From NCBI GenBank assembly GCA_015478665.1, contig JADMII010000003.1, positions 1-64,000 on the forward strand: a DNA stretch of 64,000 nucleotides. Reading direction: 5' to 3'. Source of the stretch: Dehalococcoidia bacterium (GTDB lineage: Bacteria; Chloroflexota; Dehalococcoidia; DSTF01; JACRBR01). The position numbers were made by a program, and so were the translations under genes. Every line of letters begins with the position of its first letter. Positions within the stretch are counted from its first letter, which is position 1. The notes below the pieces were generated by a model. The model was not told the DNA's origin. It ran no database searches and saw only the letters and a list, made by a program, of their open reading frames with translations. Shown here piece by piece: positions 46,217-53,927 of the stretch.

Positions 46217-46654
46217 TCATCGCCCGCGCAGCTCGTTCTCGACGTGGTCGAGCAGGTCGCGCGCGTCGCCGTCGAGCTTGCCCTCTGGTTGCAGGGCGAG
46301 GCAGCGGCGGAACGCCTCGGCAGCGCGCTGGTAGAGCGCGCTCGGATCGAGCTCCGACGCCGCGCCGCGGCGCGAGAGCTCGTGCGCAACGAACTCGCTG
46401 CACCAGCCGAGCGAGTACCACAAGCCGGCGTCGTCGGCACGCGCTCGCACCGCGCGCTCGATGCAGTCGAGGCCCTCGCTGTAGGCGCGCCGCCGCGTGA
46501 CGAGCAGCATGCCGAGCTGTTCGAGCGCGTCCGGGCGCTCCGGGTCGAGCGCCAGCGCCCGGCGGGTGAGGTCGATGCTGGCCGCGACATCGTGCGCCGC
46601 CTGCCGCTCGCGGGCCTGCGCGAGCAGCGCCTCGACATCGTCGCCGGGCGTCAT
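46217..46654 (-). CDS. TPR-like small protein
   Basis: ATGA overlap with upstream CaCA gene; DVAASIDLTRRALALDPERPDALEQLGMLLVTRRRAYSEGLDCIERAVRARADDAGLWYSLGW. Confidence 0.65.
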   Translation of the reverse strand: MTPGDDVEALLAQARERQAAHDVAASIDLTRRALALDPERPDALEQLGMLLVTRRRAYSEGLDCIERAVRARADDAGLWYSLGWCSEFVAHELSRRGAASELDPSALYQRAAEAFRRCLALQPEGKLDGDARDLLDHVENELRGR

Positions 46655-47880
46655 CGATGTTGCTCCGGCCGGTCGGCCGGCGGCGATGCGACGGGGCGAG
46701 CGCGGAGCGGCGGGCCGAAGAACGGCCGCATGCCGATGAGCTGTCGCACCAGGAAGATCGCCGCCAGCACGAGGTACATCGCGGAGAAGACGTTGATCGG
46801 CACGGCGGAGCGCGGCGTCAGGAACTGCAGGAGGAAGAGCACGAGGAGCGCCAACCCTTCGATCAACGACATGCGCAGGTTGATCAGGAGGATGACGGCG
46901 AGCAGGCTCTGCGCCGCGGTCAGCAGTACCTCCTCGGTCTGGCGCGTGTCGGTCGGCAGCGGGTTGAAGCTTCCGCTGGAGATGGCGTAGGCGAGCGGCA
47001 GGCAGCCGATCAGGAGCGTCCACTGGTTGACCTTCGACGAGACGAGGGCGCCCAGCGCGGCGTCGGCACGCAGCCGCCAGGCGAGCAGGCCGGCGACGAG
47101 GAACTCCGGGAACTCCGATGCCAGCGGCGCCAACCACTGCACGAGCTGAAACTCGTCGATGCCGAACTTCGCGCCGGTCGCGATCAGCCCCTCGGCGAAG
47201 GGCTCGGCGGCGATGACGATCGCCAGCGCCGAATAGAGGAACATCGCGAGGACGGCGAGGCGGCGTTTCAGTTTCGGCAAGTTGGCGATCGTCTCGGCCG
47301 GACCGACGAGGTCCGACTCCTCCTCGACCTCGCCGCGCGATGCCAGCACGACGTACGCGCCGAATAGTCCGATGAGGAACGCCGCATCGAGCAGGGTGAT
47401 GCCGCCGCGCAGGGGGATGACGAACGAGTACACGGTGGCGATGGCGAGGATGCCGACCTCGGTGCGGTGCGATTCGGCGAGGGCGAGCACGTTCGACCGC
47501 GTCCTCAACCAGAAAATCCCGACGACCATCGACCAGCCGAGCCCGACGAGCAGGCGGTTGCCGCCGGTCATGTTCGCCGTCGCGAACGCGGCGTAGGAGG
47601 GGTCCTTGCCGGCCTTCCAGGCGAAGAGCACGTCGACGGCGTACTCCGGCAGCACGGCGACGAGCGCCAGTCCGGCGAGCGCCAGCGTGCGCGGGATGTC
47701 GCGCTCGGCGGCTTCGGCGGACCACGTCAGGAGGAACGCCGCCGAGACGATCGCCAGACCAAAGAGCGCCGTCTCGACCGGCACCGCCGCCTCGAACACG
47801 CCGAGGCGCACGGCGACGGCCGGCCAGGCGAGGGCGGCCATGATCATCGGCCAACGCCAACGCCGGAGAATCCGCTCCAT
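46651..47880 (-). CDS. CaCA-superfamily (sodium/calcium exchanger-like) cation antiporter
   Basis: Two alpha-repeat-like motifs: LVAVLPEYAVDVLFAW...NMTGGNRLLVGLGW and ASEFPEFLVAGLLAW...SSKVNQWTLLIGCLPLAYA. Confidence 0.82.
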   Translation of the reverse strand: MERILRRWRWPMIMAALAWPAVAVRLGVFEAAVPVETALFGLAIVSAAFLLTWSAEAAERDIPRTLALAGLALVAVLPEYAVDVLFAWKAGKDPSYAAFATANMTGGNRLLVGLGWSMVVGIFWLRTRSNVLALAESHRTEVGILAIATVYSFVIPLRGGITLLDAAFLIGLFGAYVVLASRGEVEEESDLVGPAETIANLPKLKRRLAVLAMFLYSALAIVIAAEPFAEGLIATGAKFGIDEFQLVQWLAPLASEFPEFLVAGLLAWRLRADAALGALVSSKVNQWTLLIGCLPLAYAISSGSFNPLPTDTRQTEEVLLTAAQSLLAVILLINLRMSLIEGLALLVLFLLQFLTPRSAVPINVFSAMYLVLAAIFLVRQLIGMRPFFGPPLRARPVASPPADRPEQHR

Positions 47881-47904
47881 CGTCAATCCCTTCGAGAATA
47901 AAGA

Positions 47905-47937
47905 AGACCTTTGATGACCGAATGTCATCAAAGGTCT
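47905..47937 (-). terminator. intrinsic terminator / riboswitch expression platform
   Basis: Minus strand AGACCTTTGATGAC-ATTCG-GTCATCAAAGGTCT followed by TCTTTATT; 14-bp perfect stem. Confidence 0.85.
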
Positions 47938-48045
47938 CACTGCCCCGTCGCGCGGGTTGTCCGGCCGGGCGCGTGTATGGCGTGCGCCGGGTCTGGCGTT
48001 CCGGACTGCCCGCGGGCACGCGGGCCAGTTACTCCCCTTTGGGCG
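47929..48045 (-). ncRNA. yybP-ykoY family (Mn2+-sensing) riboswitch aptamer
   Basis: Minus strand CCCAAAGGGGAGTAACTGGC ... GGGGCAGTGAGACCTTTG; P1 CAAAGG/CCTTTG; conserved AAAGGGGAGUA and GAGACCUUUG signatures; upstream of cation antiporter. Confidence 0.85.
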
Positions 48046-48088
48046 TCTGCACGCTAACGCGCCATCGTCCGCGAGTCAACTCGTGCCG

Positions 48089-48301
48089 TCATCCGGCGCG
48101 GGCGCGACGGCCGCAGGACTCATGCTCGACCTCGTCGACGAGCTCGGCATCGCAGTACTCCTCGCGCGATTCGCCGTCGTCCGGCAGGCGCAGGCCGAGC
48201 CGGAAGAGGTCGTCGGATGTCATCGGCTCGCCGCAGGCGCGGCAGACGAACATCGGCCGGCCGGAGCGGTCGAGCAGGGGTTGCGGAGCGTTCATGAGCA
48301 T
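48089..48301 (-). CDS. small zinc-ribbon-like protein
   Basis: MLMNAPQPLLDRSGRPMFVCRACGEPMTSDDLFRLGLRLPDDGESREEYCDAELVDEVEHESCGRRARAG; CxxC. Confidence 0.45.
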   Translation of the reverse strand: MLMNAPQPLLDRSGRPMFVCRACGEPMTSDDLFRLGLRLPDDGESREEYCDAELVDEVEHESCGRRARAG

Positions 48302-53574: not shown

Positions 53575-53927
53575 GGGGACGAAAGGGCTCGACAGGGGGC
53601 GGCGGATCTGAGTTGCAGGCGGAGGACGGTCATCACCCTCCTAAATCCGGTGGCCACCAATAAACGGCGACTCTCAACTCGCCCTCGCTGCCTAGGCAGT
53701 GACGTTCACTCCCGACCTCACCCCGACGGGTGGGAGTTGAGCGACGATTAGCCGGGGTGCTGTGCTCCTGACGCCGATGGGGAGCGCCCAAGATCATCGA
53801 GCTGGCTCCGGGCGGCCGGGCCCGCAGCGGGTGCGCGGAGCGAGATCAAGCTGACGGGATAAGCCTGTAGCAGACTCAGGGCGTCTTCTGCCTGGACGGG
53901 GAGTTCGATTCTCCCCCGTCTCCACCA
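53575..53927 (+). ncRNA. ssrA: transfer-messenger RNA (tmRNA)
   Basis: 5' GGGGACGAAAGGGCTCGAC pairs with 3' CGTCTCC-ACCA; T-arm GGGGAG TTCGATT CTCCCC; tag ORF ending NGDSQLALAA-stop; downstream of smpB. Confidence 0.92.

Follow-up and report, generated by a model that had tools for sequence, protein, structure and literature searches.

The window analysed here, a stretch of 64,000 nucleotides (64 kb) from a Dehalococcoidia bacterium, encodes on its minus strand a cation antiporter of 409 amino acids (46651..47880; ATG at 47880, reading frame checked) that belongs to the CaCA superfamily (Pfam Na_Ca_ex, 4.3e-23). Its closest solved relative is 4kpp (4kpp_A, E 6e-91), which we take to be CAX_Af, the H+/Ca2+ exchanger of Archaeoglobus fulgidus, and the ion-site motifs LPEY, NMTG and SE-PE are common to both proteins. 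The initial annotation had labelled the protein a Na+/Ca2+ exchanger; the superfamily stands, while the 4kpp match makes it a relative of CAX-type H+/Ca2+ exchangers (CAX_Af-type) rather than of the Na+/Ca2+ type. The next gene on the same strand encodes a TPR-like protein of 145 amino acids (46217..46654) with sub-threshold matches to TPR entries in Pfam. Its start overlaps the antiporter stop by 4 bp (ATGA), and a homologue lies 3' of the antiporter, directly or past a short gap, in seven of the seven family loci tested, so that co-transcription of the two genes is likely, as was proposed when co-regulation of the TPR gene was first suggested. The antiporter is preceded by a structured leader, and directly 5' of this leader, on the same strand, is an open reading frame of 70 codons (48089-48301, minus) for a cysteine-containing product (CRAC...EEYCDAEL) that has conserved counterparts in four or more sister loci and no NCBIfam match. 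The sole Rfam match above gathering score in the window is a tmRNA gene (53575-53927, plus strand, 126.5 bits).

A likely promoter for the leader, proposed on the basis of conservation, lies at 48051..48079 on the minus strand and consists of TTGACT (48079-48074), a 17-nt spacer and TAGCGT (48056-48051). The same arrangement of TTGAC, about 17-18 nt and TAGCGT is found 5' of the leaders of the antiporter orthologues L003, L005, L007 and L008 and of the aptamer-less locus L004; this candidate is absent from the output of a strict sigma-70 scan. The switch helix P1.1 is formed, on the minus strand, by CAAAGG (48041-48036) and CCTTTG (47934-47929), and its pairs are invariant in the antiporter family. 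The top of P1.1 is overlapped by GGGGAGUA (48030..48037), the 5' strand of the sarcin-ricin-like loop L1 of the class, which is invariant across every aptamer compared, and the 3' strand of L1 (GUGAGA) together with that of P1.1 (CCUUUG) occupies 47929..47940 and is invariant in the antiporter family. Thus the L1 strands GGGGAGUA and GAGACC flank P1.1 in the window leader, and the GGGGAGTA block at 48037-48030 and the GTGAGACC block at 47940-47933, named in the initial annotation as hallmark yybP-ykoY sequences forming P1 (CAAAGG/CCTTTG), are confirmed exactly in letters and coordinates. P1.1 is followed by P1.2 (ACUG at 48026..48029, partner CAGU at 47942-47939), by the P2 hairpin GCCCGCG...CGCGGGC (48008..48025), by P3 with its internal loop L3 (47959..48006) and by the P4 hairpin CCC...GGG (47943..47956), which is weakly conserved and has approximate boundaries. 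P1.2, P2, P3 and the weak P4 make up a four-way junction.

The 3' strand of P1.1 is also part of the 5' arm of an intrinsic terminator (47896..47937), whose perfect 14-bp stem, AGACCTTTGATGAC at 47937-47924 and GTCATCAAAGGTCT at 47918-47905, is followed by the T-rich tail TCTTTATT. This overlap had been noted before and is borne out by the letters, by the relatives and by a terminator scan, in which 47937-47905 is the only site found in 300 nt (shuffled expectation 0.2). The full leader folds with a z-score of -6.1, none of 200 shuffles being equally stable, and no other part of the fold is as stable as the terminator; when the aptamer part is folded alone, P1.1 is closed. In a folding series of increasing length, P1.1 is the earlier of the two to form (probability 0.96 at 118 nt) and is then displaced by the terminator (about 1.0 at about 142 nt), so that the expression platform is coupled to P1.1 through the shared 3' strand and the two structures are mutually exclusive. 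Forcing P1.1 at full length costs about 16 kcal/mol, which implies that the switch decision must be kinetic and needs the help of the ligand. An identical mechanism has been described for the riboswitch of L. lactis (PMC11087558). By analogy, transcription would start just 5' of P1.1 and the four-way-junction aptamer (P1.1/P1.2, P2, P3 with L3, P4) would fold first; Mn2+ would then bridge L1 and L3, and the docked aptamer would stabilise P1.1 and keep CCUUUG out of the terminator stem, allowing polymerase to read into the antiporter and TPR genes. Without Mn2+ the 14-bp terminator would win and transcription would stop. The antiporter, in turn, would export surplus Mn2+, probably in exchange for protons.

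The class of the leader was examined by covariance-model searches. The initial annotation had staked the assignment on a match of Rfam RF00080 above its gathering threshold, and there is none: RF00080 gives no match at gathering score in the 64-kb window and nothing up to E = 10 in a local search of 501 nt at the site. Other Rfam matches at the site (asX1, mir-2076 and CrfA) are far under the cut-off and were set aside as hairpin look-alikes. The one RF00080 match in the window's own genome (contig C65, 27441-27476; 17.7 bits, model positions 50-82 only) is partial and is taken as chance. However, the silence of RF00080 cannot refute a riboswitch here because the model is insensitive in Chloroflexota. 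It scores above the cut-off in only one of 301 Chloroflexota genomes, and many of its weaker matches in this phylum, recognisable by their GGGGAGTA and GAGACC strands, are clearly yybP-ykoY aptamers that lie 5' of UPF0016, TerC, P-type ATPase and YrbG-like CaCA genes (names read from translations). On the sister leader L005 it gives 27.9 bits (E 6e-4). In the Rfam release 15 copy of RF00080 the printed consensus has the P1 strands unpaired, and most Chloroflexota members are missed.

A second covariance model, R1, was trained on E. coli mntP and on six aptamers that RF00080 had found in Chloroflexota, most of them in UPF0016-type leaders, with zero sequences from the family of the window antiporter. 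In the 64-kb window R1 has a single match up to E = 10, at 47929-48042 on the minus strand (E 3e-5), and this match spans the full length of the model (positions 1-108 of 108). R1 scores 40-50 bits on the sister leaders, 31 bits on the window copy, the lowest in the family, and 84 bits on mntP, which is a training row; in 168 kb searched it has no match outside yybP-ykoY leaders with E up to 1. With the independent model, conservation and covariation all in support of the class proposed earlier, the leader is very probably an ordinary yybP-ykoY Mn2+ switch that works by transcriptional antitermination, with Mn2+ assigned as ligand by analogy.

The leader is present in seven of the eight genomes of the antiporter family. 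It precedes the orthologues L003, L005, L007 and L008, and two further copies were found at contig ends with a model R2 (L134 in G007 and L145 in G001), which finds one copy only in the window's own genome; the sister antiporters with the conserved leader are 73-85% identical. Conserved in these leaders are the loop strands GGGGAGUA and GUGAGACC, the Mn-sensing adenosine, the four-way junction and the terminator that shares P1.1. In the seven-member alignment 95.9% of pair cells hold, compared with at most 46.7% for slid structures, and three P2 pairs are altered on both sides. Within the family P1.1 is constant, and the compensatory form CGAAGG/CCTTCG occurs in L010 and in UPF0016 leaders; the terminators of L010 and L112 change together with their P1.1. 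P1.1-sharing terminators are also found in L003, L005, L007, L008, L010, L112 and others. The conserved letters of the L1 and L3 loops, the covarying four-way junction and the independent covariance-model match leave almost no room for the reading that the conserved element is merely an intrinsic terminator or attenuator with a coincidental GGGGAGTA block, even though nothing else in the leader is as stable as the terminator and RF00080 is silent. In the eighth family genome, G003, from a sister genus (L004, about 1350-1500, the same as L033), the aptamer is gone from in front of the antiporter, which is a natural loss of the aptamer; what remains there is a promoter similar to that of the window and a hairpin that resembles a terminator.

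The leader joins the known yybP-ykoY class and has an ordinary transcriptional ON design; its anatomy, conservation and shared strand are those described above, while Mn2+ as the ligand and antitermination as the response are inferred from published members of the class. In common with the transcriptional type of L. lactis yoaB and X. oryzae (RF00080), it has the P1.1 switch helix, the GGGGAGUA/GAGACC L1 loop, the four-way junction, the L3 Mn-sensing adenosine and the P1.1-sharing terminator; it differs in lying under Rfam detection, in its L3 core and in the CAX_Af-type antiporter gene downstream. Two of its stretches, CAAAGGGGAGTAAC and GTGAGACCTT, are identical in E. coli alx. The E. coli mntP riboswitch, which is matched by the same model R1, is described as a translational switch (PMC11647493), whereas the window leader has an intrinsic terminator. 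The Chloroflexota aptamers L112-L127 and L133-L162, which precede UPF0016, TerC, P-type ATPase and YrbG-like CaCA genes, have the same architecture, many with P1.1-sharing terminators, and differ in their downstream genes and L3 sub-types. For the most part, UPF0016, TerC and P-type ATPase are families in which Mn exporters are known (PMC13274385). In five other Chloroflexota loci (L116, L119, L121, L122 and L123) the aptamer stands before a second CaCA subfamily, which is YrbG-like and has a GTS-PE motif, and in two loci of family f36 genomes (L143 and L151) what follows an aptamer of the Mn type, about 480 nt further on, is not TerC but an MgtC/SapB-like gene. In the window's own genome, searches for MntP and TerC found neither, and a search for UPF0016 gave one sub-threshold match (24.4 against 27 bits) in an open reading frame not recognised as UPF0016.

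Published structures show Mn2+ bound to N7 of an L3 adenosine that never varies (A41 in L. lactis, A48 in X. oryzae; PMC6754395). The equivalent in the window is A47994 by alignment of the motif UC[G/A]NCA, and it is kept in seven of seven members; the assignment was made by eye, since the automatic alignment slips three bases between L3 sub-types. The L3 core of the family reads UCGNCA-[G/A]ACC instead of UCAACA-NNCU, and the window itself has ACGCCA with one extra unpaired A. Unlike its six relatives, the window copy is without the U that would pair with A48000, and A47999 replaces the conserved U of a U.G pair; both changes are unique within the family, and they remove an A-U and a U.G pair of L3 next to the adenosine (region 48002-47960). 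These changes account for its lower R1 score, and this copy of the aptamer may be weakened or may carry a sequence error. It could also be decaying, with a working promoter and terminator, an altered L3 that binds Mn2+ poorly and a gene that is constitutively attenuated, G003 being a later stage of the same process. The L3 changes found in the window alone, its score at the bottom of the family range and the promoter and terminator-like hairpin that outlast the aptamer in L004 would all fit such a course. Yet nothing has changed in the L1 loop strands, in P1.1, in the terminator or at the sensing adenosine, the aptamer may tolerate one bulged A and the exchange of U.G for A.G, and the assembly may contain a sequence error here; we consider decay unlikely.

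The altered L3 also bears on the identity of the ligand. A yybP-ykoY architecture that senses another divalent ion, such as Ca2+, would suit a gene of the H+/Ca2+-exchanger type, the nearest solved relative of the antiporter (4kpp) being the calcium exchanger CAX_Af. According to a review, certain yybP variants are likely to sense divalent ions other than Mn2+ (PMC7266159), and the family L3 departs from UCAACA-NNCU. This reading is nevertheless quite improbable, as all family members retain the adenosine that selects Mn2+ through its N7, the family L3 is intermediate between the two canonical types GUCGUCA and GUCAACA, and the genes that follow the related Chloroflexota aptamers belong to known Mn-exporter families. 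Its more specific form, in which the family L3 would define a yybP-ykoY variant adapted to a different divalent ion (Ca2+, for example) and controlling its cognate CAX exchanger, is very improbable. We therefore keep the Mn2+ switch as the preferred reading.

The ion-site motifs of the protein are silent on this point. The paired glutamates of the two alpha-repeats (LPEY and SEFPE motifs) are invariant in 103 relatives, and the ion-site motifs are equally conserved in the approximately 90 relatives that have no leader; reading Mn2+ specificity from these motifs was thus uninformative, and it is the regulation, through the gene context, that points to Mn2+ as the transported ion. No riboswitch precedes the gene in those Archaeoglobales relatives whose leader is visible, unlike the window antiporter gene. 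Presence of the leader was counted by parsimony on a tree of the 103 antiporter relatives and requires four changes, compared with 9.7 by shuffling: one origin on the branch that L009 and L010 share with the family of the window, a single loss, in G003, and two separate cases, L048 from the Thermomicrobiales and L083 from an actinobacterial record. By this count, a CAX_Af-type antiporter has been paired with the Mn2+ switch at least three separate times. Within the literature covered, which did not extend to two discovery papers of 2015, no yybP-ykoY element upstream of CAX/CaCA genes was found, and no claim of priority is made.

The finding is of moderate interest for three reasons: the repeated link to CAX_Af-type antiporters, the blind spot in the database and the natural loss series. 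A missing RF00080 match in high-GC Chloroflexota genomes is not evidence against an Mn2+ riboswitch. For the antiporters themselves, whose nearest solved structure is a CAX exchanger, the leader provides a regulatory lead to the substrate and suggests that a supposed calcium exchanger handles Mn2+; the repeated pairing makes Mn2+ export by CAX_Af-type antiporters a direct prediction.
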